From: Actinomycetes bacterium
GTDB taxonomy: Bacteria > Actinomycetota > Actinomycetes > Streptosporangiales > Streptosporangiaceae
Assembly (NCBI GenBank): GCA_021793235.1
Contig: JAJYTD010000001.1
Span: forward strand, 186,001-250,000
Length of the DNA stretch: 64,000 bases
Direction of reading: 5' to 3'
Below the pieces are notes generated by a model that saw nothing but the letters and a program-made list of their open reading frames with translations, ran no database searches and had not been told where the DNA came from. This document shows, one piece after another, positions 37,758 to 51,124 of this stretch (positions are counted from its first letter, which is position 1; each line of letters starts with the position of its first letter). The position numbers were made by a program, and so were the translations under genes.

Positions 37758-38507
37758 TCAGACCGCGGAAAATGCGGCAGGGGCGCGGGCGAGGAATTCC
37801 ACGGCGCTTTTCTTGAAGGCCTGCGCCGATACGGTGGTGCGGTGATCGCGCCGGGCGACGCGCAGCGCCCCGGCTGCGCCGGTGTCCTGGGCGAGCCGTT
37901 CCATGCCGTCCGCGAGCCCGTCCCGTTCCCCGGCGACAAAGAGCAGCGGGGTGCCCGCGGGTGCGGGGACCGCGGTGAACGGGTGGGCGGCCTGGCCCCG
38001 TGTGCACGCGGCGAGGGCCGCGGGGTCGTTGCCGGGCAGCGCCGCGGCGGCGCGGTGGACCTGCCCGAAGGGGCTCTGGTCGGTGCCGGGCCGATCCAGG
38101 TCGGCGCCTGCGAAGGCGTTCACCGGCCCGAAACCGCCGAGAACGGCGCGGCGCACCCGGTCAGGCCGGGCCAGGGCGAGCTCCCACGCCAGCCGGGAGC
38201 CCATGGAGTAGCCGATGATGTCGACGCGTTCGATCCCCAATGCGTCCAGAAGCAGCACGATATCGGTGACGAACACCGAAGGCGTGTACGCCTCGTCGGT
38301 GTGCGGCTTGCCACTGTTTCCGTGTCCGCGCAGGTCGAGGCCGACGGTCGGGAACCCCTCCAGCGCCCGCCCCCACCCTGTGCGGACCCAGTTCGACTCA
38401 TGGCTCGAACCGAAGCCGTGCAGCAGCAGTACCGGAACCGGATGCCGTGCCGATCCGGGGGCGGTGGTGTAGCGCAGCGGCACGTCCGCGGGAAGTATCC
38501 GGTACAT
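37758..38507 (-). CDS. Alpha/beta hydrolase in the 2-oxoacid dehydrogenase operon
   Basis: 249 residues, cytoplasmic. The nucleophile Ser101 is in GYSMGSR, the oxyanion strand is LLLHGFGSSHESNW, the acid residue is probably in AGERDGLADG, and the catalytic His is in RRDHRTTVS. The ATG at 38507 has GGAGGAAG 2-3 bases upstream of its spacer. It is the last gene of the E1-alpha/E1-beta/lipoyl operon, 77 bases after the lipoyl gene. In acetoin dehydrogenase E2 (AcoC) a lipoyl domain is fused to just such a hydrolase fold. Here the two parts are separate genes, which suggests, without proof, that this protein is the acyl-handling half of a split E2. A thioesterase is an alternative. Confidence 0.82.
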   Translation of the reverse strand: MYRILPADVPLRYTTAPGSARHPVPVLLLHGFGSSHESNWVRTGWGRALEGFPTVGLDLRGHGNSGKPHTDEAYTPSVFVTDIVLLLDALGIERVDIIGYSMGSRLAWELALARPDRVRRAVLGGFGPVNAFAGADLDRPGTDQSPFGQVHRAAAALPGNDPAALAACTRGQAAHPFTAVPAPAGTPLLFVAGERDGLADGMERLAQDTGAAGALRVARRDHRTTVSAQAFKKSAVEFLARAPAAFSAV

Positions 38508-38584
38508 CGCTTCCTCCACTCGTCTGTACGGCCGGGACGCCCAGCGTTCCGTTGCCGGCGGGCCGCGCGGGATCCGGCGGCGGA

Positions 38585-38908
38585 TCATTCCGCGGGCGGC
38601 CGCAACCGGACCCGGCGGGACGGCCTCTCCTCCTCCCGGGGGACCGTGCCGACGATCCCGGCCGCCTGTTCGGTCTCGAAGGTCACCAGGGCGGCGCCGA
38701 CCTGGACGACCGCGCCCTCTTCGGCGTGCAGCCGGACGATGACGCCGGAGTGCGGGGAGGGGATCTCCACTGCCGACTTGGTCGTCTCCAGCTCCACCAG
38801 CGGCTGGTTGCGCTCGATGCGTTCGCCCGGCTCCGCCAGCCATTCCAGGACGGTCGCCTCGACGAGCCCTTCGCCGAGGTCGGGGAGCGTGAACGTCTGT
38901 TCGGCCAT
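38585..38908 (-). CDS. Stand-alone lipoyl domain protein (E2-type, no catalytic domain)
   Basis: 107 residues: a complete biotinyl/lipoyl domain (residues 3-78) with the modification Lys44 in ELETTKSAVEIPSP, followed by a ~25-residue charged tail resembling an E2 linker. A normal branched-chain E2 has about 400-500 residues with a peripheral-subunit-binding domain and an acyltransferase domain; neither is present, and no remnant of them follows the stop codon. It lies 5 bases after E1-beta in the same operon, so it should accept acyl groups from this E1. The acyl acceptor step must be done by another protein. Confidence 0.88.
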   Translation of the reverse strand: MAEQTFTLPDLGEGLVEATVLEWLAEPGERIERNQPLVELETTKSAVEIPSPHSGVIVRLHAEEGAVVQVGAALVTFETEQAAGIVGTVPREEERPSRRVRLRPPAE

Positions 38909-38913
38909 TGTCG

Positions 38914-39960
38914 TCAGAACTCCAGGGTCCGCTGCACCGCGAGCAGGATGCGGTCGATCGTGGGCAGGTACTGCGGTTCGAGGGGGCCCGCAGGGTAGGG
39001 GACGTCGAATCCGGTCACCCGTTGCACCGGTGCCGCGAGGTCGCAGAACACCCGTTCGGTGATGAGCGAGGAGACCTCGGCCCCCAGGCCGGCGGTGAGC
39101 GGGGCCTCGTGCACCACGACCGCGCGCCGGGTGCGAGAGACGGAAGCGGCCAGGCCGTCGGTGTCGATCGGTTTGAGCCAGCGCAGGTCGAGCACTTCGA
39201 GGTCGACGCCGTCCTCGGCGGCGAGTTCGGCGACCCGCAGACAGCGGTGCACCATCGCGCCCCAGGCCACCAGCGTGGCGTGCCGGCCGGGCCGGGCGAT
39301 CCGGCTGGCTCCGATCGGATCGCCACCGGTGTCCGCGGCCTGGGCGCGGGCCCCGTCCAGCACCACCTGCCGCCGGTCCCAGTAGCGGGCCTTGGGCTCC
39401 ATATAGATCACGGGGTCGTCGGAGCGGATCGACTGCAGCAGCAGGCGGTAGGCGTCGTTCGGGTCGGAAGGCGCCACGACCTTGAGGCCCGGTACGTGGG
39501 CGAACAGGGCCTCAAGGCTCTCGCCGTGGTGCTCGGGCGCCTGGATGCCGCCGAAGCTGGGCAGCCGCACGGTGATCGGCATCGAAGCGGCGCCGCGTGA
39601 ACGGTAGTGCATCCGCGCCATCTGGTTGACGATCTGGTCCACGGCAGGGTAAGCGAACCCGTCGAACTGCAGTTCCGGTATGGGGCGCCAGCCGTTCATG
39701 GCCAAGCCGACAGCCAGCCCCACGATTCCGGACTCGGCGAGCGGGGTGTCGAAGACCCGGTTCTGCCCGTATGCGGCCTGCAGGCCGTCGGTGACGCGGA
39801 AGACGCCACCGAGACGGCCCACATCCTCGCCGAACACGAGTGTGGCGGGATCCTCGCGCAGGGCAGTGTCGAGTGCGCGGTTGATGGCCTGCTGCATCGT
39901 CATCTCGACGAGGGCGGCGCCGTTCGCGCCCCGCCCCTCTCCCACGAGGGCTTCAGTCAA
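38914..39960 (-). CDS. 2-oxoacid dehydrogenase E1 beta subunit (branched-chain type)
   Basis: 348 residues, transketolase-like pyrimidine-binding and C-terminal domains. Signatures: VFGEDVGRLGGVFRVTDGL, FDTPLAESGIVGLAVGLAMNG, MPITVRLPSFGGIQAPEHHGESLEALFAHVPGL, and VVVHEAPLTAGLGAEVSSLI. These fit BCKDH/BkdA2-type more than pyruvate-type E1 beta. The likely start is TTG at 39960, with AGGAGGT 6 bases upstream and overlapping the E1-alpha stop (TTGA); an internal ATG at 39903 would truncate the conserved N-terminus. With E1-alpha it decarboxylates a 2-oxoacid on ThDP and loads the lipoyl arm. Confidence 0.92.
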   Translation of the reverse strand: MTEALVGEGRGANGAALVEMTMQQAINRALDTALREDPATLVFGEDVGRLGGVFRVTDGLQAAYGQNRVFDTPLAESGIVGLAVGLAMNGWRPIPELQFDGFAYPAVDQIVNQMARMHYRSRGAASMPITVRLPSFGGIQAPEHHGESLEALFAHVPGLKVVAPSDPNDAYRLLLQSIRSDDPVIYMEPKARYWDRRQVVLDGARAQAADTGGDPIGASRIARPGRHATLVAWGAMVHRCLRVAELAAEDGVDLEVLDLRWLKPIDTDGLAASVSRTRRAVVVHEAPLTAGLGAEVSSLITERVFCDLAAPVQRVTGFDVPYPAGPLEPQYLPTIDRILLAVQRTLEF

Positions 39961-41000
39961 GGCTCGACCTCCTCGCGCCAGAGCCGCTGCTGGCGGGCGA
40001 GCTCCTCGGTGGGCTCGCGGTAGACATAGGTGAACAGGTCTGATCCGGCGGGAGGCGGCGCGGTGGCGATCCCGTCGCGGATCCGCTCCACCGCGGCCCG
40101 GGCACCGTCCTCGATCTGTTCGAAGAAAGCGGTGTCGGCGTGGCCGGCTTCCTCCAGAGCGGTGCCCAGGCGGGGCAGCGGATCGCGTTCCTGCCAGGCG
40201 TGCTCCTCACCGCGGTCGCGGTAACGGGTGGTGTCGTCGGATGTGGAGTGGGGCGCGAGCCGGTAGGTGAGCGCCTCGATCAGCGTGGGCCCGCCGCCGG
40301 AGCGCGCCCTGTCCAGGGCCGAGCGCGTGGCGTTGTGGACCGCTGCGGCATCGTTGCCGTCGACGGTGATGCCGGGCATCCCGTAGCCGGCGGCGCGTGC
40401 CGCGATGGAGCCGCCGGCGATTTGGCGCTCATTGGGCACCGACAGCGCCCAGCGGTTGTTCTGGCAGAAGAACACGACAGGGGAGCCGAAGACACCGGCG
40501 AAGTTCAGCGCCTCATGGACGTCCCCCTGGGAACTCGCCCCATCGCCGAAGTAGGCGATCGCGCAGCCGGTCTCGCCGCGCAGCCGCTCTCCGAGGGCCC
40601 AGCCCACCGCGTGCGGTACGGGGCCGCCTACCACCGCGTTGATGGATCCGAACCGTGAGGCGATCGGGTCGTAGCGGCCACCGTGCCACAGCGCGCGGTG
40701 GCTCGCCAGGTAGCCGACCATGTCCACGCCGAGGGTGAGGGCGACGGCCATCTCGCGATAGGTCGGGAAGGCGAAGTCCCGGTCGCGGTCGAGCGCCGCG
40801 GCGCTGGCCACCTGGGCCGCTTCCTGGCCGCGCAGGGAGACGTAGGCGGGGAAGACCCCCTGGCGCTGGAGGGCGATGGCCTCTGTGTCCAGCAGGCGGG
40901 CGGTGAGCATATCGCGGTAGATGCGGCGCGCCGACTCCGCCGGGAGCGCTCCGGTGCGGTCGGGCGTGGAGCCGGCGCCCGGTGGCGCGTGGGTCTGCAT
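39957..41000 (-). CDS. 2-oxoacid dehydrogenase E1 alpha subunit (branched-chain type)
   Basis: 347 residues. The ThDP/Mg2+ motif is GDGASSQGDVHEALNFAG, ending in CQNNRW. Other signatures are FPTYREMAVALTLGVDM, GPVPHAVGWALGERLRG, and the C-terminal RLAPHSTSDDTTRYR loop typical of branched-chain E1 alpha. Substrates are probably 2-oxo acids of Val/Leu/Ile. The ATG at 41000 has GAGGGAG 8-9 bases upstream; another in-frame ATG at 41018 would place that site inside the coding sequence. First gene of the four-gene operon. The upstream 60 bases carry a 14-bp perfect inverted repeat. No E3 gene is in the window. Confidence 0.93.
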   Translation of the reverse strand: MQTHAPPGAGSTPDRTGALPAESARRIYRDMLTARLLDTEAIALQRQGVFPAYVSLRGQEAAQVASAAALDRDRDFAFPTYREMAVALTLGVDMVGYLASHRALWHGGRYDPIASRFGSINAVVGGPVPHAVGWALGERLRGETGCAIAYFGDGASSQGDVHEALNFAGVFGSPVVFFCQNNRWALSVPNERQIAGGSIAARAAGYGMPGITVDGNDAAAVHNATRSALDRARSGGGPTLIEALTYRLAPHSTSDDTTRYRDRGEEHAWQERDPLPRLGTALEEAGHADTAFFEQIEDGARAAVERIRDGIATAPPPAGSDLFTYVYREPTEELARQQRLWREEVEP

Positions 41001-41060
41001 GGCCGGCGACTCCCTCATTAATCGGGCACGGACGGATCAGGGGTGGACGGCCCTGACGGT

Positions 41061-41143
41061 TCAGCCTTGATTGTCTGCAATGAATCGACACTTTATCTAG
41101 ATATACGAATAAGATCGATACATACGAGTACAATCAAGGCTGA
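41061..41143. repeat. 14-bp perfect inverted repeat spanning an AT-rich segment upstream of E1 alpha
   Basis: TCAGCCTTGATTGT (41061-41074) and its exact complement ACAATCAAGGCTGA (41130-41143) are separated by 55 bases that are unusually AT-rich for this DNA. These include the palindrome TATCTAGATA (41094-41103). It begins 61 bases upstream of the E1-alpha start and is likely regulatory: paired operators for a looping or Lrp-type octameric regulator, or a long RNA hairpin. Confidence 0.6.
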
Positions 41144-41260
41144 TATGTGCGTTTCCGTCTAGATGAGCGGAGTTCGGGGTGGGGAAAAGGACACACCGCG
41201 CCACCCGGGGGCGTTGTGGGAGGTGCCGGGATGGGCGGGTGGGAATGCGGCCTCGGGCGG

Positions 41261-41620
41261 TCAAAGATCCGGGAGTGGATCGGGGGGCAGCGCCTCGCGG
41301 CCGGCGAGCTCGGCATCGCAGGCATTGACCACCGACACGTACTCGTCGTCGATCTCGAAGGTGTGGCCGCCGAGGTCGAAGGTGGGGATGAGGTGGGTGT
41401 CCACCGGGCCGATGCGCACGTTGCGCGGGAAGACGCGCCAGATGCCCTTCGGGCGCGTGCGGCTCCAGAACCGGTTCACCAGCACCGTGACGGCCGAATC
41501 GGTCACCACGAAGACGAAGAACATCGACTCGTTCCACGACGCGGGGAAGATGTAGCGGATCTCGGCTCCGGCGGGCAGGAAGCCCCGCGCTCGCTCTCGG
41601 ACGTTCGGGGAAACGGGCAC
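41261..41620 (-). CDS. Small conserved-looking protein of unknown function
   Basis: 119 residues. Without a signal peptide, it has a hydrophobic beta strand (SMFFVFVVTDSAVTVLVNRFW) and a second half rich in alternating strands (RIGPVDTHLIPTFDLGGHTFEIDDEYV). This resembles PH-like or bacterial small beta-barrel proteins that sense or bind at the membrane, but I do not recognise the family. The GTG at 41620 has AAGGGGG 5 bases upstream; the longer frame to 41683 adds Arg-rich sequence. It lies between the E1-alpha regulatory region and an Lrp gene, with no obvious partner. Confidence 0.65.
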   Translation of the reverse strand: MPVSPNVRERARGFLPAGAEIRYIFPASWNESMFFVFVVTDSAVTVLVNRFWSRTRPKGIWRVFPRNVRIGPVDTHLIPTFDLGGHTFEIDDEYVSVVNACDAELAGREALPPDPLPDL

Positions 41621-41838
41621 GGCGACCCCCTTGCGTTCAGGCGTGCGTCCGCGCCATGCACGAGGGCGGACCTGATCGGACAATGCTAGATCCGGGCAGC
41701 GCGAAAGGGGAGGGGTGGAAAAGGAGGCCGCCCTCCGGCCCTGGGGCGCTGTTCGTCTCGAAAAGTGAGATTTGAATGGACGTAGGCGCCTGTCTCCTGT
41801 TACCTCGTTGCTTACCGTCTAAGACACTGGGAGTGGGC

Positions 41839-42429
41839 ATGGGCCAGAGGGAGCAGGAGCGCCTGCGGCGCGTCCGGGAGAGCGCGGCAGCCGGTGTCGA
41901 ACGCCGCGCGCCGGACAGCGCCGCCGATGCGGCGAACGGGGAACGCGAGCGCGGACGCCAGGGCCGGTCCGGCCGGCTCCCGGATGCCACCGACGAGACG
42001 ATCATCGGCGCACTCGCCGACGACGCCCGGACCGGGGTCACCGAGATCGCCGCGATGGCCAACATCTCCCGGGCCACGGCCTACAACCGCATCAGGCGGC
42101 TGACCGACGACGGCGTCATCCGCGGATACTCCGTGGTCACCGACCACGCCAAGATGGGTCTCGGCGTCACCGCCCTGGTACTGATCTCGGGCAGCCAGCC
42201 CGACTGGCGGGCCAACCGGGAGATCCTGTCCTCCTATCCCGAGATCGAGTACTGCTGGTACGTGGTCGGGTCCGCAGACATCGTGCTGCTGGTGCGGGTG
42301 GCCGACACCAACCAGTTGCGCGACCTGATCCTGACACGGCTGCAGGCACTTCCCGGGGTGACCGCCACCCAGACCCTCACCGTCATCGACGAGGTCGTCC
42401 ACCGTCCCGTCGTCCGCCCCACCGGCTGA
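41839..42429 (+). CDS. Lrp/AsnC-family regulator (BkdR-like candidate)
   Basis: 196 residues. A ~50-residue charged N-terminal extension precedes a winged HTH (about 53-105, TDETIIGALADDARTGVTEIAAMANISRATAYNRIRR in character) and a C-terminal RAM domain (115-190, with YCWYVVGSADIVLLVRVAD). In other bacteria, Lrp proteins placed beside branched-chain 2-oxoacid dehydrogenase genes (BkdR) activate them in response to branched-chain amino acids. Its location 0.8 kb from the E1-alpha start, with an operator-like repeat in between, fits that role. It may also act on the operon downstream. The ATG at 41839 follows GGGAG by 5 bases. Confidence 0.87.
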   Translation: MGQREQERLRRVRESAAAGVERRAPDSAADAANGERERGRQGRSGRLPDATDETIIGALADDARTGVTEIAAMANISRATAYNRIRRLTDDGVIRGYSVVTDHAKMGLGVTALVLISGSQPDWRANREILSSYPEIEYCWYVVGSADIVLLVRVADTNQLRDLILTRLQALPGVTATQTLTVIDEVVHRPVVRPTG

Positions 42430-42454
42430 GCGGTCTCCATCGCCCGAGGAACGA

Positions 42455-42496
42455 GCCCGGAGAAAAACAAGCACGCGTGCTTGTTTTTCTCCGGGC
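42455..42496. repeat. 42-bp perfect palindrome (terminator and candidate operator)
   Basis: Two 21-bp halves are exactly complementary with no spacer. The core is AACAAGCACGCGTGCTTGTT and the outer arms are GCCCGGAGAAA and its complement TTTCTCCGGGC. It lies 25 bases after the Lrp stop and ends 20 bases before the AtuA start. As RNA it gives a strong hairpin with U5 within its 3' arm. As DNA it covers a TTGTTT minus-35-like element (42481-42486). Confidence 0.75.
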
Positions 42497-42516
42497 GGGC
42501 TGCCACGCTCAAGGCC

Positions 42517-44232
42517 ATGGACGCCACACCCGTCGTGCGGATCGGCAACGCCTCGGGCTTCTACGGTGACCGCTTCGCCGCGATGCGCGAAATGCTCAGC
42601 GACGGCCCCCTGGACGTTCTGACAGGGGACTACCTGGCCGAACTCACCATGCTCATCCTGGGCCGGGACCGGCTCGGGGATCAGGAGCGGGGATATGCGC
42701 GGACGTTTCTACGGCAGCTGGAAGAATGCCTCGGACTCGCTGTCGAGCGGGGTGTCCCGATCGTCAGCAACGCCGGAGGACTCAACCCCGCCGCCCTGGC
42801 CGCGCGGTTGACAGAGCTCGCCGACCGCCTGGGCCTGCGCGTGCGCGTGGCCCGCGTCGAGGGGGACGACCTGCGCACCAGGGAATTCGGCGGCAAAGGC
42901 GCCGTCACCGCCAACGCCTACCTCGGCGCCCAGGGCATCGCGGCGTGCCTGCGCGCCGGTGCCGACATCGTCGTCACCGGCCGGGTCACCGACGCATCGC
43001 TCGTCGCCGGACCGGCCGCCGCGCATTTCGGCTGGAGCCCGGACGACCACGACGCCCTCGCCGGGGCGATCACCGCCGGACACATCATCGAATGCGGTGC
43101 TCAGGCCACCGGCGGCAACTACGCGTTCTTCACCGAGCTCCAAGCCGAAGGCCGCGACCTGACCCGCCCCGGCTTCCCCATCGCCGAGATCAGCGCCGAC
43201 GGCTCCTCGGTCATCACCAAGCACGACGGCACCGGTGGGGCGGTCACCGTCGGGACGGTCACCGCGCAACTGGTGTACGAGGTCGCGGGTGCGCGCTACC
43301 CCAATCCCGACGCCACCGTCCGCCTCGACACGGTCCGGCTCATTCAGGAGGGGCCCGACCGGGTGCGCGTCAGTGGGGTGCGGGGCGAGGCGCCGCCGCC
43401 GGACCTCAAGGTCGGCCTCACCCGCATGGCCGGGTTCCGCAACGACATGGCGCTCGTGCTCACCGGGCTCGACATCGAGGAGAAGGCCGCACTGGCCGAA
43501 CGCCAGATCCGTACCGCGCTCCACGGCCGCGAACCCCGCCACCTGGAGTTCCGCCTCTCACGACAGGGCGACCCGGACGCCCCCACGCAGGAGGGGGCGA
43601 GCGCCCGACTGTCCATCGAGGCGCGCGACAGCGACCCGGATGCCGTGGGCCGCGCCTTCAGCGCCGCCGTCGTCGAAGCGGCCCTGGCGAGCTACCCCGG
43701 TTTCCACGCGACATCCCCGCCCAAAGACGCCCGCCCCGACGGGGCCGTATTCGCTGCCGCCGAGGTCCCGGCCGGCCTTGTCGACCACGTCGCGGTGCTG
43801 CCCGACGGCACCCGTGTCGGCATCGACCCGCCCGCCGCCACCCGCGCCCTCGCCGAGGTCGCCGAACCGCCGCTGCCCGATGCTTTGCCGTCCGGCCCCA
43901 CCCGGCGCGCCCCGCTGGGGCTGATCGCCGGCGCCCGCAGCGGCGACAAGGGATCCGATGCCAACGTGGGGGTGTGGGTGCGCACCGACGAGGAATGGCG
44001 GTGGCTGGTCCACACTCTCACCACTGCCGAGTTCCAGCGGCTGCTGCCCGAGACCGCTCCTTTGCCCGTCACCCGGCACGTGTTCGCCAACCTGCGCGCT
44101 CTCAACTTCGTCGTGGCGGGCCTGCTCGGCGACGGCACCGGAGGCGGTACCCGTTCCGACCCCCAGGCCAAGGCACTCGGCGAGTGGCTCCGCGGCCGCT
44201 GCATGGACATCCCGGAGGTGCTGCTGCCGTGA
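42517..44232 (+). CDS. AtuA-family protein (DUF1446 + AtuA C-terminal domain)
   Basis: 571 residues of the acyclic terpene utilisation AtuA family. The large N-terminal domain (about 1-450) includes VRIGNASGFYGDR at the start, SNAGGLNPAALAARLTELA, and CGAQATGGNYAFF. The C-terminal ~110 residues form the small AtuA ferredoxin-like domain, marked by LGLIAGARSGDKGSDANVGVWV. Biochemical function is not known even in Pseudomonas, where atuA is needed for citronellol/geraniol breakdown. It is the first gene of a five-gene operon; its stop overlaps the carboxylase start (GTGA). The ATG at 42517 lacks a strong ribosome site and may be leaderless. Confidence 0.9.
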   Translation: MDATPVVRIGNASGFYGDRFAAMREMLSDGPLDVLTGDYLAELTMLILGRDRLGDQERGYARTFLRQLEECLGLAVERGVPIVSNAGGLNPAALAARLTELADRLGLRVRVARVEGDDLRTREFGGKGAVTANAYLGAQGIAACLRAGADIVVTGRVTDASLVAGPAAAHFGWSPDDHDALAGAITAGHIIECGAQATGGNYAFFTELQAEGRDLTRPGFPIAEISADGSSVITKHDGTGGAVTVGTVTAQLVYEVAGARYPNPDATVRLDTVRLIQEGPDRVRVSGVRGEAPPPDLKVGLTRMAGFRNDMALVLTGLDIEEKAALAERQIRTALHGREPRHLEFRLSRQGDPDAPTQEGASARLSIEARDSDPDAVGRAFSAAVVEAALASYPGFHATSPPKDARPDGAVFAAAEVPAGLVDHVAVLPDGTRVGIDPPAATRALAEVAEPPLPDALPSGPTRRAPLGLIAGARSGDKGSDANVGVWVRTDEEWRWLVHTLTTAEFQRLLPETAPLPVTRHVFANLRALNFVVAGLLGDGTGGGTRSDPQAKALGEWLRGRCMDIPEVLLP

Positions 44233-45824
44233 CGGTTCTTCGGTCCCGACTCGATACCGCCGCGCCGGGGTTCGCCGAAGCGCGGGAATCGATGCTGGCC
44301 AAGCTCGCCGAACTGGATACCGAACACGCCAAGGCGCTGGCCGGTGGCGGGTCGGCCTACATCGACCGGCACCGCGGCCGCGGCAAGCTGCTCGCCCGGG
44401 AACGGATCGAGCTCCTCCTCGACCCCGATTCGCCCTTCCTGGAGCTGTCACCGCTGGCCGCATGGGGAAGCGACTATCCGGTGGGCGCCAGCGTCGTCAC
44501 CGGCGTCGGCGTTGTCGAAGGCACCGAGTGCGTCGTCATCGCCAACGACCCGACCGTCCGCGGCGGTGCCAGCAACCCCTGGACCGGCAAGAAGACGATG
44601 CGCGCGATGGAGATCGCCGAGCAGAACCGGATGCCGTTGATCAACCTCGTCGAATCCGGGGGAGCCGACCTGCCCAGCCAGAAGGAGATCTTCATCCCCG
44701 GCGGGCGGATGTTCCGCGACCTCACCCGCTTCTCCGCGGCCGGCATCCCCACCGTCGCGCTGGTGTTCGGCAATTCCACCGCCGGCGGCGCCTATGTACC
44801 GGGAATGTCGGACCACGTCGTCATGGTCCGAGAGCGCTCCAAGGTGTTCCTCGGCGGGCCGCCGCTGGTGAAGATGGCGACCGGAGAGGAGAGCGACGAC
44901 GAGTCGCTGGGCGGTGCCGAGATGCACGCCCGCGTCTCCGGCCTGGCCGACTACCTCGCCGCCGACGAGGCCGACGCCATCCGGACCGGGCGGCGGATCG
45001 TGGCACGACTCAACCGGCGCAAACCGGGGCCCCGCCCCGCGGCTTCCGTGGAGCCCCGCTACGACGCGGAGGAACTGCTCGGCATCGTCCCCAGCGACCT
45101 CAAGATCCCCTTCGACCCGCGCGAAGTGATCGCCCGTGTCGTCGACGGCTCCGATTTCGACGAGTTCAAACCCGCCTACGGCGCGGGACTTGCCACTGGT
45201 TGGGCGCGCCTGCACGGCTACCCGGTCGGTGTGCTGGCCAACGCCCACGGAGTGCTGTTCAGCGAGGAGTCACAGAAAGCGGCCCAATTCATCCAGCTCG
45301 CCAACCGGGCCGACACCCCGCTGATCTTCCTGCACAACACCACCGGGTACATGGTCGGCCGCGACTACGAACAGGGCGGCATCATCAAGCACGGCGCGAT
45401 GATGATCAACGCGGTCTCCAACAGCACTGTGCCGCACTTGTCGGTACTGGTGGGCGCCTCCTACGGCGCCGGACACTACGGGATGTGCGGGCGCGCCTAC
45501 GACCCCCGGTTCCTGTTCGCCTGGCCCAGCGCGAAGGCCGCCGTCATGGGACCGCAGCAGCTCGCCGGCGTGCTGTCGATCGTGGCTCGGCAGTCCGCCG
45601 CGGCAAAGGGCCGCGACTACAGCGAGGAACAGGACGCCGCGATGCGGGAAATGGTGGAGAACCAGATCGAGGCCGAGTCGCTGCCGATGTTCCTGTCCGG
45701 CCGGGTCTATGACGACGGCGTCATCGACCCCCGCGACACCCGCACAGTGCTGGGGCTGTGCCTGTCGGCCGCCCACAACGCCCCCGTACGCGGCGCCGAC
45801 GGTTTCGGCGTCTTCCGGATGTAG
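44229..45824 (+). CDS. Acyl-CoA carboxylase, carboxyltransferase (beta) subunit, MCC/GCC-like
   Basis: 531 residues, two crotonase-fold halves. It transfers carboxyl from biotin to a branched acyl-CoA. Signatures: LAGGGSAYIDRHRGRGKLL near residue 40, GASNPWTGKKTMRAMEIAEQ, LVESGGADLPSQKEIF, GNSTAGGAYVPGMSD, FLGGPPLVKMATGEE, and the C-terminal NTTGYMVGRDYE and SYGAGHYGMCGRAYDP that bind CoA. These match methylcrotonyl-/geranyl-CoA carboxylase beta (LiuB/AtuC) rather than propionyl-CoA carboxylase. The GTG at 44229 overlaps the AtuA stop by 4 bases. Confidence 0.92.
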   Translation: MTVLRSRLDTAAPGFAEARESMLAKLAELDTEHAKALAGGGSAYIDRHRGRGKLLARERIELLLDPDSPFLELSPLAAWGSDYPVGASVVTGVGVVEGTECVVIANDPTVRGGASNPWTGKKTMRAMEIAEQNRMPLINLVESGGADLPSQKEIFIPGGRMFRDLTRFSAAGIPTVALVFGNSTAGGAYVPGMSDHVVMVRERSKVFLGGPPLVKMATGEESDDESLGGAEMHARVSGLADYLAADEADAIRTGRRIVARLNRRKPGPRPAASVEPRYDAEELLGIVPSDLKIPFDPREVIARVVDGSDFDEFKPAYGAGLATGWARLHGYPVGVLANAHGVLFSEESQKAAQFIQLANRADTPLIFLHNTTGYMVGRDYEQGGIIKHGAMMINAVSNSTVPHLSVLVGASYGAGHYGMCGRAYDPRFLFAWPSAKAAVMGPQQLAGVLSIVARQSAAAKGRDYSEEQDAAMREMVENQIEAESLPMFLSGRVYDDGVIDPRDTRTVLGLCLSAAHNAPVRGADGFGVFRM

Positions 45825-45837
45825 CCAGGAGGCGCAC

Positions 45838-47832
45838 GTGATCAGCACCCTGCTCGTCGCCAACCGCGGGGAGGTCGCCCGGCGGATCCTGCGCACCTGC
45901 CGCGGCCTCGGTATCGGCACCGTCGCGGTCTGCTCCGACCCCGACACCGACGCCCCGCACACCCGCGAAGCCGATGCCGCCGTCCGGCTCCCCGGGCGCG
46001 CTCCCGCAGACACCTACCTGTGCGCCGAGGCGATCATCGCGGCCGCGCAGCAGGCCGGCGCCGACGCCCTCCACCCCGGATACGGGTTCCTCGCAGAGAA
46101 CGCGTCGTTCGCCCGCGACGTGATCAAAGCCGGGCTGGTCTGGGTCGGGCCGCGGCCCGAGGCGATCGAAGCCATGGGCACCAAGATCAGCGCCAAGGAA
46201 CTCGCCGCCCGGGCCGGGGTGCCGGTGTTCGGCGGCCTCGTCCCCGAATCCGTCACCGAAGACGACCTGCCGGTGCTGGTCAAAGCGTCCTCGGGCGGCG
46301 GCGGCCGGGGCATGCGGGTCGTTCGCGACCTCGCCGATCTACCCGGCGCGGTCGAAGCCGCACGCTCCGAGGCCGCTGCCGCGTTCGGCGACGCGGCCGT
46401 GTTCTGCGAACCCTACGTCGAACGGGGACGGCACATCGAGGTGCAGCTCCTCGCCGACGCTCAGGGCACCGTCTGGGCGGTGGGAGAGCGCGACTGCTCC
46501 ATCCAGCGGCGGTACCAGAAGGTCATCGAGGAGGCCCCGGCCCCCGGTATCTCCGCCGATCTGCGCGAACGGCTGCACGACGCGGCCCGCCGAATGGCCG
46601 CCGCCATCGGCTACACCGGCGCGGGCACCGCCGAGTTCCTCGTGGCCGAGAACGGGGCGGCCTCCTTCTTGGAGATGAACACCCGGCTCCAGGTGGAGCA
46701 CCCCGTCACCGAGTGCGTCACCGGCCTGGACCTGGTGGAGTGGCAGCTCCGCATCTCCGAAGGGGAGGCACTGCCCGCCGGAGGGCCGCCGCCCGCCCGC
46801 GGCCACGCGATCGAGGCCCGGCTCTACGCAGAGGACCCCGCGCACGACTGGCGCCCGCAGAGCGGCACCGTGCACGCGTTCTCCGTGCCCGCGGCAGTCG
46901 CGGAATTCACCGCACCGGCGCACCACGGGATCCGGGTCGACAGCGGGGTGAAGGACGGCGCCGCCGTCGGCGTCGACTACGATCCCATGCTCGCCAAAGT
47001 CATCGCCTGGGGCGCCACCAGGGCCGACGCCGCCCGCAGACTGGCCGTGGCGCTGGCCGGAGCAAAGCTGCACGGCCTCGGCAACAACCGGGACCTGCTC
47101 GTGCGCATCCTGCGCCACCCCGCCTTCGGCGCCGGCGAGGTGCACACCGGCTTCCTCACCGACCACGGCGCCGCTGAACTCGCCCGGCCACTGGCAGACG
47201 CCGAAACCACGCGCCTTGCGGCACTGGCGGCGGCACTGGCCGACGCGGCGGCCAACCGCGAACGGGCCCCCGTCCTGGGCACCCTGCCTCCCGGGTGGCG
47301 CAACCTGCCGTCGCAACCGCAGACCAAGCGGTACCGGACCGCCGACGGGGAAGAGCCGGCGGTCGCCTACCACTGCACCCGCGACGGGTTCCAGGCGGAT
47401 CGCCCCAGCGGTGTGCACGTAGTCCGGGTCGCGCCCGGCGAGGTGGTGCTCGAAACAGGCGGGGTGCGCCGCACCTTCACCGCCGCGACCTATCCCGGGC
47501 CACTCACCTGCGTGGATTCGCCTCTCGGCGCTGTCTCGCTGTTTCCCGTCGACCGGTTTCCCGCTCCAGAGGACACCACCGAGCCAGGAGCCCTGCTCGC
47601 ACCCATGCCGGGAGCGATCGGCAGGGTCGTGGTCGCCGAGGGCGACCGGGTGCGCGAAGGGGACCTGCTGATGTGGCTGGAAGCCATGAAGATGGAGCAC
47701 CGGATCACCGCCCCCGCAGACGGCGTGGTCACCGAACTGCCGGCTGCGCCGGGCGGCAGGGTCGAGGCCGGCGCGGTACTGGCGGTCGTGGACGAAGCAG
47801 CCGCGGAAGACGAGGAAAGGGGCAGACCATGA
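45838..47832 (+). CDS. Acyl-CoA carboxylase, biotin-carrying (alpha) subunit
   Basis: 664 residues. The biotin carboxylase domain (1-445) begins STLLVANRGEVARRILR and includes the ATP-grasp loop KASSGGGGRGMRVV, ERDCSIQRRYQKVIEEAP and FLEMNTRLQVEHPVTE. A linker region (about 450-580) follows, then the C-terminal biotin-carrier domain with the biotinylated Lys in LEAMKMEHRI. It forms an alpha-beta complex with the preceding gene. The GTG at 45838 has AGGAGG 6 bases upstream. The last 4 bases overlap the acyl-CoA dehydrogenase start (ATGA), so the operon is translationally coupled. Confidence 0.94.
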   Translation: MISTLLVANRGEVARRILRTCRGLGIGTVAVCSDPDTDAPHTREADAAVRLPGRAPADTYLCAEAIIAAAQQAGADALHPGYGFLAENASFARDVIKAGLVWVGPRPEAIEAMGTKISAKELAARAGVPVFGGLVPESVTEDDLPVLVKASSGGGGRGMRVVRDLADLPGAVEAARSEAAAAFGDAAVFCEPYVERGRHIEVQLLADAQGTVWAVGERDCSIQRRYQKVIEEAPAPGISADLRERLHDAARRMAAAIGYTGAGTAEFLVAENGAASFLEMNTRLQVEHPVTECVTGLDLVEWQLRISEGEALPAGGPPPARGHAIEARLYAEDPAHDWRPQSGTVHAFSVPAAVAEFTAPAHHGIRVDSGVKDGAAVGVDYDPMLAKVIAWGATRADAARRLAVALAGAKLHGLGNNRDLLVRILRHPAFGAGEVHTGFLTDHGAAELARPLADAETTRLAALAAALADAAANRERAPVLGTLPPGWRNLPSQPQTKRYRTADGEEPAVAYHCTRDGFQADRPSGVHVVRVAPGEVVLETGGVRRTFTAATYPGPLTCVDSPLGAVSLFPVDRFPAPEDTTEPGALLAPMPGAIGRVVVAEGDRVREGDLLMWLEAMKMEHRITAPADGVVTELPAAPGGRVEAGAVLAVVDEAAAEDEERGRP

Positions 47833-48986
47833 GCTTCACCGAACCCGCGGAGCGGGTGGCGCTCCGCGAGGCCGTCGCCGGGTTCGCCGGCGACTACGGT
47901 GCACAGTACTTCCAACGGAAAGCCCGGGCGGGGGAGTACCTCACCGAACTGTGGGCGGCGGCCGGGAAGCTCGGCTACCTCGGCGTCAACCTGCCCGAGG
48001 AGTTCGGCGGCGGAGGCGGCGGCATCGGCGACCTCGCCGCTGTCCTCGAAGAGCTCAGCGCCGCAGGCTGCCCCACTCTGATGATGGTGGTGTCCCCGGC
48101 CATCTGCGGCACCGTGCTGGCCCGCTTCGGCACCCCCGAACAGCAGCAGCGCTGGCTTCCCGGAATCGCCTCCGGGCAGAGCATCCTCGCCTTCGCCATC
48201 ACCGAGCCTGACGCGGGCTCCAACTCCCACAACATCACCACCACCGCGCGGCGCGACGGCGCGGACTGGCTCCTCACCGGACGCAAGACCTTCATCTCCG
48301 GTGTGGACGTCGCCGACGCGGTGCTCATCGTCGGCCGTACCGAGGACGCCGCGACGGGCAGGCTCAAACCCGCGCTCTTCGTGGTCCCGACCGACACCGC
48401 CGGGTTCGAGGCCCGGCCCATCGAGATGGACTTGGTCAGCCCGGACCACCAGTTCGGCCTGTTCCTGGACGATGTCCGGCTGCCCGCCGATGCGCTGGTG
48501 GGCGACCCCGACAGCGGGCTGCTCCACCTGTTCGCCGGGCTCAACCCCGAACGCATCATGGCGGCGTCCCTGGCGACCGGATCGGCCCGACACGCGCTCT
48601 CACGCGCGGTCGCCTACGCCAACGAGCGCGAGGTGTGGGGCAGGCCCATCGGCGCCCACCAAGGGTTGGCGCATCCGCTCGCCCAGGTCAAGGTCGAGTT
48701 GGAGCTGGCCCGGCTGATGACCCAGAAAGCCGCCGCCCTCTACGATTCCGGTGACGACGCCGGAGCCGGAGAGGCCGCGAACATGGCCAAGTACGCCGCC
48801 GGTGAGGTAGCGGTACGCGCCGTCGACCAGGCCGTGCAGACCCTGGGCGGCAACGGGCTGGCCAGCGAGTACGGCCTGGGCGCCGCGATCGCGACATCGC
48901 GCCTGGGGCGCATCGCACCGGTGAGCCGCGAGATGGTCCTGAACTTCGTGGCCCAGCACTCACTCGGCCTACCGAAGTCCTACTGA
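47829..48986 (+). CDS. Acyl-CoA dehydrogenase (branched-chain type candidate)
   Basis: 385 residues, FAD-dependent. N-terminal helical domain, middle beta domain (FAITEPDAGSNSHNITTTA; FISGVDVADAVLIVGRT), and C-terminal helices with ANEREVWGRPIGAHQGLAHPLA and VQTLGGNGLASEYGLGAAIATSRLGRIAPVSREMVLNFVAQ. The catalytic Glu is probably in ASEYG. In an Atu/Liu-type pathway it would make the alpha,beta-unsaturated acyl-CoA (for example isovaleryl- or citronellyl-CoA type) that the carboxylase then uses. The ATG at 47829 overlaps the alpha-subunit stop. Confidence 0.92.
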   Translation: MSFTEPAERVALREAVAGFAGDYGAQYFQRKARAGEYLTELWAAAGKLGYLGVNLPEEFGGGGGGIGDLAAVLEELSAAGCPTLMMVVSPAICGTVLARFGTPEQQQRWLPGIASGQSILAFAITEPDAGSNSHNITTTARRDGADWLLTGRKTFISGVDVADAVLIVGRTEDAATGRLKPALFVVPTDTAGFEARPIEMDLVSPDHQFGLFLDDVRLPADALVGDPDSGLLHLFAGLNPERIMAASLATGSARHALSRAVAYANEREVWGRPIGAHQGLAHPLAQVKVELELARLMTQKAAALYDSGDDAGAGEAANMAKYAAGEVAVRAVDQAVQTLGGNGLASEYGLGAAIATSRLGRIAPVSREMVLNFVAQHSLGLPKSY

Positions 48987-49002
48987 AAGGAGTCGGGCAC
49001 AC

Positions 49003-49644
49003 GTGGACGCACCGGGCGCTGCGCCCGCGGACCGGGGACCGCAGCAGGAGCGCAGCCGGGCCACGCGGCAGCGGCTGTTGGAGGCTGCGGTGGAGTGCCT
49101 CGCGCAGACCGGAGCCGCCGGGAGCACCGTCGGCGCCGTGGCCGAGCGCGCCGGCGTGTCGCGCGGGGCCGCCCAGCACCACTTCCGCACCCGGGAGGAC
49201 CTGTTCACCGCGGCGCTGCGGCACATGAGCCAGACCAGACTGGATGACCTGCGGTGCCGCGCCGCCGGTCTGCCCGAGGGGAGAAGCCGCACCGAGGCTG
49301 TCGTCGAGATGCTCGTCGACGCCTACAGCGGACCGGAGTTCGACGCGGCCCTGCAGTTGTGGTCGGCCGCGGCCAACGACCCCCGGCTGCGTACCCACGT
49401 GATCCCCCTGGAAGAGCACATCGGCCGGGAGGCGCACCGCGCCGCCGTGGAGCTGCTGGGGGCCGACGAGTCAAAGCCCGGTGTGCGGGAGGCGGTGCGG
49501 GCCACCCTGGACCTCGCCCGCGGCCTTGGGCTGGCCGGCCTCCTCACCGACGACCGCGCCCGCCGCCGCGGCGTCATCCGCCAATGGGCCGCCATGCTGG
49601 AACGGGAACTCGCAGAGAAGCGGCGAGACAGTGGGCGACGGTAA
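49003..49644 (+). CDS. TetR-family repressor, operon-encoded
   Basis: 213 residues. The N-terminal HTH (about residues 18-65) includes RLLEAAVECLAQTGAAGSTVGAVAERAGVSRGAAQHHF, which is typical TetR; a helical effector domain follows. It starts at GTG 49003, 16 bases after the acyl-CoA dehydrogenase stop with AAAGGAG 7 bases upstream, so it is the last gene of the AtuA operon. Like AtuR in Pseudomonas it probably represses its own operon; the 42-bp palindrome before atuA is the obvious candidate site, and an acyl-CoA the likely inducer. Confidence 0.9.
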   Translation: MDAPGAAPADRGPQQERSRATRQRLLEAAVECLAQTGAAGSTVGAVAERAGVSRGAAQHHFRTREDLFTAALRHMSQTRLDDLRCRAAGLPEGRSRTEAVVEMLVDAYSGPEFDAALQLWSAAANDPRLRTHVIPLEEHIGREAHRAAVELLGADESKPGVREAVRATLDLARGLGLAGLLTDDRARRRGVIRQWAAMLERELAEKRRDSGRR

Positions 49645-49710
49645 GCAGCGGTACATTGAGGCGGCCGGTCCGGCCCTGCTTTCCCCAGGGCCGAACCGGT
49701 CTGCTGGTGA

Positions 49711-50136
49711 TCACGCCCCCGGCGTACCGGCGAACGTGCACCAGACTTCGCGCCCCAGGTAGTTGCCCCGGTGGCCGAAGGAGTCGGCCAGGTATTCCAC
49801 CAGCGCCAGCCCCCGGCCGCCCTCGGCGTCGATGCCCGCGCCACCGACCGTGGGCACCTCGTCGGAGCCGTTGTCGCGGACGGTGATGCGCAGGTGGTCG
49901 GGGTGGAATTCGACCCGCACCCATACCACCCCGCCCGCCCACGTGGAGCGGGTGTGGGTGACGGCGTTGGTGACGAGTTCGCTGACGCACAGTTCGGCAT
50001 CCGCGACGAGGTCGTCGCCGTAGTCGCACAGGACCATGCGCACCCAGGCGCGAGCGGCGGCGACCTGGTCGAGCGAGCCCGCGAAACAGCCGCACTTGAC
50101 CCAAGTCGGAGAGGAGCCGGTGAACCGTCCGGTCAT
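49711..50136 (-). CDS. HATPase_c-type ATP-binding protein (RsbW/SpoIIAB-like)
   Basis: 141 residues, GHKL fold. The N-box is ELCVSELVTNAVTHT, the G1 box RDNGSDEVP and the G2 box GGRGLALVEYLADSFGH. Such small ATP-binding proteins act as anti-sigma kinases or, in streptomycetes, are linked to differentiation regulators. The ATG at 50136 has GAGGTGAT 4 bases upstream. It is divergent from the Scr1-type regulator gene across a promoter region with two inverted repeats. A direct partner sigma factor is not present here. Confidence 0.88.
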   Translation of the reverse strand: MTGRFTGSSPTWVKCGCFAGSLDQVAAARAWVRMVLCDYGDDLVADAELCVSELVTNAVTHTRSTWAGGVVWVRVEFHPDHLRITVRDNGSDEVPTVGGAGIDAEGGRGLALVEYLADSFGHRGNYLGREVWCTFAGTPGA

Positions 50137-50169
50137 AGGTATCACCTCAAGCGGTGGAGAGATAGGGGT

Positions 50170-50224
50170 CACACCCTGTGCGGGTGTGCTCACACCAGAA
50201 ATATAGACCTCTAATGTGAGAGGT
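50170..50224. promoter_or_regulatory. Divergent promoter with two inverted repeats
   Basis: CACACCC-TGTGC-GGGTGTG (50170-50188) and ACCTCT-AATGTG-AGAGGT (50207-50224). Also TCACACC occurs twice in direct orientation. TATAGA lies between the two repeats. Probably the operator of the Scr1-type HTH protein, controlling both directions. Confidence 0.5.
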
Positions 50225-50290
50225 GCAGTTGAACATCGAAAAACTGTGGACTCTTTGTGGGAGCCGAGTCGTCCGGCCATGATTGACCTC

Positions 50291-51124
50291 ATGGCGACGA
50301 ACCCGACGATCGGACGTTGGCAACTGGCGTTCGAGCTCAAGCGGCTACGAGGCGGCAAGACGCGCGATTCGGTCGCCCGGGGCATCGAGGTCGCACCTAC
50401 GAGCATCACGCGCTGGGAGGACCCCGCCCAGACACTGCCGCGCCTCCGGGATCTGAAGGCTCTGCTGAGCTACTACGAAGTAGCGGAAGGCGACGCACAG
50501 CGCCTGCTTGATCTCTACGCGCAGGCGAAAAAGCGAGGTTGGTGGCAGACCTACGGGGTGGAGAAGCGGTACGGAACGTACATCGGACTGGAAGCCGCGG
50601 CTACTCGGATCGAGACCTTCGAGAGCGAGCTGGTCCCCGGCCTCTTCCAGACCGAGGATTACGCCCGCGCAGTCACAGCGAAGACAGCGCCGCACACCAC
50701 GGCCGAAGAAATCGAGGCCAACGTCAAGGTCCGATTGGAGCGGCAGAGGACCTGGCACGAATCGCAGCCGGAAACGTGGGCGATACTCGCCGAGCCCGCG
50801 ATCCGGCACTACGTCGGCGGGGCGGCCGTCATGCGAGACCAGCTCGAACGGCTCGTGGAGTTGTCGTATGAGCCGCATGTCGATGTGCAGGTCATCCCGT
50901 TCAGCGCGGGTGGCCACGCTGCATTGGAGCGGGGATCGTTCGTGCTGCTGCACCTTGATGACATATTCGTTGTCTACACCGAGGGAGTCGCCAGTAATCT
51001 CTTCCAGGACCGCCCCGAAGACCTCGAGAGCCATCGAAAGATCTTGGACAAGCTGCGAGCGGATGCCATCAGCCCGGAACAGAGCCGCGTGCTCATACAG
51101 GCAGCAGCGCGTGACATGGAATGA
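50291..51124 (+). CDS. Scr1-type (WhiJ/AbaA-like) helix-turn-helix regulator
   Basis: 277 residues. Xre-like HTH at about 8-60 (RWQLAFELKRLRGGKTRDSVARGIEVAPTSITRWE), followed by the DUF5753 domain of the Scr1/WhiJ family (SELVPGLFQTEDYARAV; then HVDVQVIPFSAGGHAALERGSFVLLHLDD). In streptomycetes these proteins occur in many copies with a DUF397 partner and an ATPase and influence development and antibiotic production, in an antitoxin-like pairing. The ATG at 50291 was chosen from family alignment; another ATG at 50279 is possible and neither has a clear ribosome site. The DUF397 gene follows 16 bases later. Confidence 0.88.
   Translation: MATNPTIGRWQLAFELKRLRGGKTRDSVARGIEVAPTSITRWEDPAQTLPRLRDLKALLSYYEVAEGDAQRLLDLYAQAKKRGWWQTYGVEKRYGTYIGLEAAATRIETFESELVPGLFQTEDYARAVTAKTAPHTTAEEIEANVKVRLERQRTWHESQPETWAILAEPAIRHYVGGAAVMRDQLERLVELSYEPHVDVQVIPFSAGGHAALERGSFVLLHLDDIFVVYTEGVASNLFQDRPEDLESHRKILDKLRADAISPEQSRVLIQAAARDME

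Follow-up and report, generated by a model that had tools for sequence, protein, structure and literature searches.

The acyclic terpene utilisation cluster that is controlled by AtuR in Pseudomonas includes a biotin-dependent acyl-CoA carboxylase. AtuR itself is described as a TetR-type repressor of this cluster (Forster-Fromme and Jendrossek 2010, in PMC3511530), and it binds two 13-bp inverted repeats in the 280-bp intergenic region between the divergent genes atuA and atuR (PMC3511530). For mycobacteria, the description of BkaR (Rv2506 / MSMEG_4718) is that of an autoregulatory TetR repressor of a branched-chain catabolic operon of the accD/accA/fadE type, with a 24-bp palindromic operator whose core reads GTTA(N)T(N4)A(N)TAAC (PMC3920632). 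A survey in Streptomyces additionally presents TetR-family regulators whose single operator lies between two divergently oriented genes (PMC3511530).

In the 64-kb stretch of actinobacterial DNA analysed here (the window), a gene for an Lrp/AsnC-family regulator is followed by a palindrome and then by genes for an AtuA-family protein, a carboxyl transferase, a biotin carboxylase, an acyl-CoA dehydrogenase, and a TetR-family regulator (Table 1). From AtuA to TetR the genes overlap or are separated by gaps of at most 16 bp, which is consistent with one operon, and the TetR gene is indeed its last gene, as the first-pass annotation had stated. The TetR protein carries the N-terminal helix-turn-helix domain TetR_N (46.7 bits, where 24 is the cut-off), and no close relative of it was found among the solved structures. 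In the same comparison the carboxyl transferase scored 565 bits against methylcrotonyl-CoA carboxylase beta and 491 bits against geranyl-CoA carboxylase. Based on this best likeness, the encoded pathway is plausibly one of branched-chain or terpenoid acid breakdown. Elsewhere in the window, on the minus strand at 37758-38908 and beside genes for E1 alpha and beta (38914-41018), a 107-aa protein consisting of a lipoyl domain only takes the E2 position, and a distinct alpha/beta hydrolase comes next. In the acetoin dehydrogenase E2 model NF011457, the first of the two corresponds to the front part and the second to the back part, like a split E2.

Table 1. Features of the palindrome, the predicted promoter, and the neighbouring genes (positions in the window).
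Feature	Position	Strand	Basis or remark
42-bp perfect palindrome	42455..42496	.	sequence
Conserved operator core AAAACAAGCACGCGTGCTTGTTTT, 24 bp, consensus AAAACAAKCANGCNTGMTTGTTTT; putative TetR dimer site	42464..42487	.	comparison
Left outer arm GCCCGGAGA; pairs with the right arm in this genome only	42455..42463	.	
Right outer arm TCTCCGGGC; lies within the predicted promoter's spacer	42488..42496	.	
Predicted -35 TTGTTT, within the operator's right half	42481..42486	+	constant distance from the -10 in related loci
Predicted extended -10 TGCCACGCT (TGN + CANNNT), 17-nt spacer	42501..42509	+	fixed offset in related loci
Lrp/AsnC-family regulator, upstream	41839..42429	+	matched in 1 of 80 related loci (L004)
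AtuA-family protein (PF07287); opens the operon, start predicted to be leaderless	42517..44232	+	
Acyl-CoA carboxylase carboxyl transferase	44229..45824	+	closest solved structure: methylcrotonyl-CoA carboxylase beta
Biotin carboxylase / biotin carrier subunit	45838..47832	+	
Acyl-CoA dehydrogenase	47829..48986	+	
TetR-family regulator (PF00440); putative binder of the operator and repressor of its own operon	49003..49644	+	

The palindrome starts 25 bp past the lrp stop (42429), and the ATG of AtuA follows at 42517. Its arms (42455-42475 and 42476-42496) of 21 nt each are 100% complementary with zero spacer, and no longer perfect palindrome occurs within the 64-kb window, so that the spacer-free 42-bp perfect palindrome noted before AtuA in the first-pass annotation was confirmed. 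At the base composition of the window, 2.6 × 10−7 perfect palindromes of 42 bp are expected by chance per 64 kb, compared to 0.02 for a perfect 24-bp core taken by itself, and the probability that the nine outer pairs arise by chance is 1.3 × 10−5. When up to three mismatches were allowed, the 20-bp core occurred once in the 4.8-Mb genome. A second good operator site was not found in this genome, where matches with three mismatches, this site excepted, were at the level of the controls, and those of a looser 16-mer pattern with one mismatch were at or below it. A search of positions 41000-50500 against Rfam gave zero matches. Another long palindrome, of 46 bp with perfect 23-nt arms, was seen in a Streptomyces locus (L078), where it lies away from the operator.

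Conservation of the core and its linkage to tetR

Eighty related loci with the TetR protein were gathered from named genomes, and 75 of them contain three or more of the four remaining operon genes. A symmetric 24-position matrix with a maximum of 49.5 bits was built from seven sites of other genomes; the site in the window scored 44.1 bits with this matrix, whose seven seed sites were drawn from the same species set as the loci scored. Matrix sites precede the operon in most of the TetR loci that cover this region, and versions of the core were found before the orthologous operon or tetR in Nocardiopsis, Actinomadura, Kitasatospora, Streptomyces, and Amycolatopsis. The site is centred upstream of AtuA, at a distance of approximately 30-50 bp for Nocardiopsis and Actinomadura and of 51-99 bp for Kitasatospora-type loci, while in Amycolatopsis and most Streptomyces the site precedes an additional first gene. 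In L036 the first gene behind the operator (192) encodes a TIGR03084 protein of the maleylpyruvate isomerase group, and the genes behind the operator in L020 (3520), L023 (559), and L025 (1775) are similar to it in sequence. In most Actinomadura loci tetR is divergent from atuA, with one site between them serving both. In four loci of this genus (L035, L043, L046, and L075) tetR is 2-4 kb away from atuA, and a copy of the operator is present at each of the two genes. The recognition region of the TetR protein, RAGV-RGAAQHHF, is invariant in the 80 orthologues, a conservation that is inflated because QHHFRTRE was one of the six seeds with which the orthologues were fetched.

TetR orthologues scoring at least 155 bits were present in 53 of the 198 genomes of the class. 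A consensus site, defined by at most one mismatch and a distance of at most 15 kb from tetR, was linked to tetR in 31 of these. The consensus is missing in two families, and the six loci that were read there show the variant CAGGCTTGACTGTTTG, or a sequence near it, directly upstream of tetR. A match to the variant pattern CAGGCTTGACTGTTT was then found approximately 20-60 bp upstream of tetR in 18 out of the 18 genomes of the two families that had earlier been without a site, six of these genomes being the loci that supplied the pattern. In two more genomes a weaker form of the site is present approximately 6.7 kb upstream of tetR, as in the window. Altogether, a site was linked to the TetR orthologue in 51 of the 53 TetR genomes among the 198 examined; in the remaining two, the site was either absent (G146) or located on a different contig from tetR (G030). 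In L150-L155 and further genomes of the two families, the half-site CAGTCA / TGACTG replaces CAAKCA just upstream of tetR, which makes these families a natural case for studying how repressor and operator change together. Away from tetR, palindromic copies of either form of the operator were also seen (G173:C33:234744, G025:C52:13892, G082:C23:288903, and G169:C1:3185397) and are possible further targets of the regulator.

In AtuA-bearing genomes, drawn mainly from the family, approximately 1.5 kb on each side of AtuA was scored with the matrix at a threshold of at least 28. A site was found near AtuA in 11 of the 13 genomes with TetR and in none of the 16 without it (Fisher P = 2 × 10−6), a test that is partly confounded by phylogeny as the TetR-less genomes mostly have more distant AtuA genes. 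G208 and G210 possess TetR and show no good match near AtuA. The way in which the site tracks the position of tetR is free of that confounding. In summary, the palindromic core is conserved together with the regulator gene and overlaps the predicted promoter of its presumed target. The first-pass annotation had proposed a TetR operator here, and this proposal gains strong support from the conservation of the core and the co-occurrence of the TetR gene. Judged by these comparisons, the inner 24 bp are very probably the operator of the operon's own TetR, by which the AtuA operon would be repressed.

Predicted promoter and model of repression

The hexamer CACGCT at 42504-42509 begins 17 nt past TTGTTT and ends 7 nt before the AtuA ATG. 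With TGC in front of the hexamer, the arrangement TTGTTT-17-CACGCT has the spacing of 16-18 nt, the TGN motif, and the conserved position of a sigma-70-type extended -10 promoter, with a -10 hexamer that begins with C and not T (CANNNT) and is thus a weak match to the usual TANNNT. It is missing from the list returned by a generic promoter consensus scan. Of the 68 sites in the related loci, 66 have TGNCANNNT downstream of the operator at a fixed offset, which is 13 nt in 55, 14 nt in 3, and 9 nt in the 8 sites where the operator match is in a shifted register. On shuffled right flanks it appeared in 1.5% of cases and on the mirrored left flanks in 0 of 68, and on the latter count a second promoter of this type, reading divergently from the minus strand of the palindrome, was rejected. 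The first start codon is located 6-7 nt past the -10 in 44 loci, from which the AtuA mRNA is predicted to begin at the start codon and to be leaderless. The variant sites have the same geometry, for instance TTGACT-17-CATGCT-6-ATG in L150. This fixed geometry is observed directly, as are the sequence, its conservation, and the co-occurrence with TetR. With the extended -10 at a fixed place and the predicted -35 inside the operator, the occluded promoter that had been suggested 7 bases before the AtuA ATG is also supported.

From these observations we infer TetR binding, repression, ligand, and start site as follows. A TetR dimer would bind the 24-bp core and cover the TTGTTT -35 in its right arm, and with the -35 covered, RNA polymerase would be blocked from the TGCCACGCT promoter. 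This would switch off the genes for AtuA, the carboxylase, and the acyl-CoA dehydrogenase and also tetR, the last amounting to negative autoregulation. TetR would be released by a small molecule, for which an acyl-CoA intermediate from the encoded pathway of branched-chain or terpenoid acids is a plausible candidate, and upon release transcription would start at or next to the AtuA ATG and yield a leaderless mRNA. The TetR operator is well supported and apparently undescribed; no paper on it was found in the open-access literature, although a description published elsewhere may be missed. A TetR regulator common to at least five actinobacterial families thereby gains an operator, a promoter, and a predicted start site that can be put to the test. 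The presumed target is an acyl-CoA carboxylase operon of uncertain substrate, and the releasing ligand would point to the pathway.

Outer arms and alternative readings of the palindrome

As RNA, the palindrome has the shape A5-stem-U5. The 42-mer was predicted to form a 19-bp stem closed by a 4-nt loop (-33.5 kcal/mol), and the folding of the 96-nt region is 4.4 sd below that of shuffles (z = -4.4). The palindrome had initially been read as one element that may also terminate the lrp transcript. In related genomes the two parts came apart, with the core conserved and the outer arms not. The outer arms are not complementary in the relatives, no U-tract follows the full stem (GGGCTGCC is present instead), and the core is kept where tetR and AtuA are divergent, all of which speaks against a terminator after Lrp. 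A terminator scan also listed nothing at the palindrome. When the 20-nt flanks of 65 loci were re-paired among the loci, the complementarity of the real outer arms was no better than that of the re-paired ones (P = 0.58 for divergent and P = 0.44 for co-directional loci), and conservation of the outer arms as an RNA stem was rejected. These 9-bp arms are peculiar to this genome, and the terminator reading, attractive as it is, rests on this feature of one genome.

The closest relative, L004, has the same order of lrp and AtuA. Its outer arms are unpaired, and a separate G+C-rich hairpin is located between lrp and the operator. The right flank is common to the window and L004, with CTCCGGG and CGGG in both, and the left arm is new. 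As only the right flank is common, it is plausible, though unproved, that the palindrome was lengthened when its right arm was copied. We give an even chance to the explanation that the outer arms arose by such a template-switch extension of an existing palindrome and are functionless, which is compatible with a TetR operator in the core. A right arm copied into the left fits the flanks described above, and no selection on arm pairing is seen in the relatives; the change, however, is seen in a single genome of the genus.

Alternatively, the core could be the TetR operator while the extended palindrome, in this lineage, also ends or blocks lrp read-through as a hairpin. The strength of the stem, its place shortly past the lrp stop with no other strong hairpin predicted between lrp and AtuA here, and the low chance probability of the nine outer pairs all agree with such a dual element. 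Nevertheless we consider it unlikely, given the full stem without a U-tract, the negative terminator scan, the lack of complementary arms in relatives, and the hairpin that L004, with the same gene order, keeps separate from its operator. A palindrome working on two levels in this lineage, as a DNA operator and as RNA arms that end or insulate lrp, with repressor binding and termination coupled, would be a quite improbable arrangement.

Another regulator could bind the site instead of TetR, for example the adjacent Lrp, whose gene adjoins the site in this genome and in L004. Lrp is, however, not beside the other orthologous sites, and it was rejected as the binder for this reason; moreover, the TetR gene accompanies the site in nearly all TetR genomes, and a detached tetR carries its own duplicate of the site, which leaves this reading very improbable. 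Finally, hardly any probability remains for a palindrome that is no operator and acts mainly as an intrinsic terminator after lrp, possibly in both directions, as its A5-stem-U5 shape and place behind lrp would allow. The core is conserved in sequence beyond pairing alone, and it persists between divergent tetR and atuA, a place that no transcript enters. Lrp adjoins the site in just 1 of 80 related loci, and the presence of the site follows that of TetR. The comparative data already largely refute this terminator reading.

Relation to described TetR systems

With the core as a TetR operator, the locus can be set beside the described systems. BkaR, as it is presented in PMC3920632, shares with it a 24-bp palindromic operator, a TetR repressor, and an acyl-CoA operon of branched-chain type in an actinobacterium. 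The half-site differs, being ACAAKCA here, and AtuA is not mentioned for the BkaR operon in the part of PMC3920632 used for this comparison. An operator of the BkaR type was rejected on sequence, the core in the window being ACAAGCACGCGTGCTTGT as against GTTA(N)T(N4)A(N)TAAC (PMC3920632).

The Actinomadura orthologues, with one site between tetR and atuA, show exactly the arrangement given in the Streptomyces survey (PMC3511530), whereas tetR in the window is the last gene of the operon that it would control. Compared by description, the locus is unlike the AtuR system in that a single 24-bp core is situated within 62 bp of AtuA, while tetR closes the operon. It is like AtuR in combining a TetR-family repressor, a cluster with atuA, and an inverted-repeat operator before atuA.
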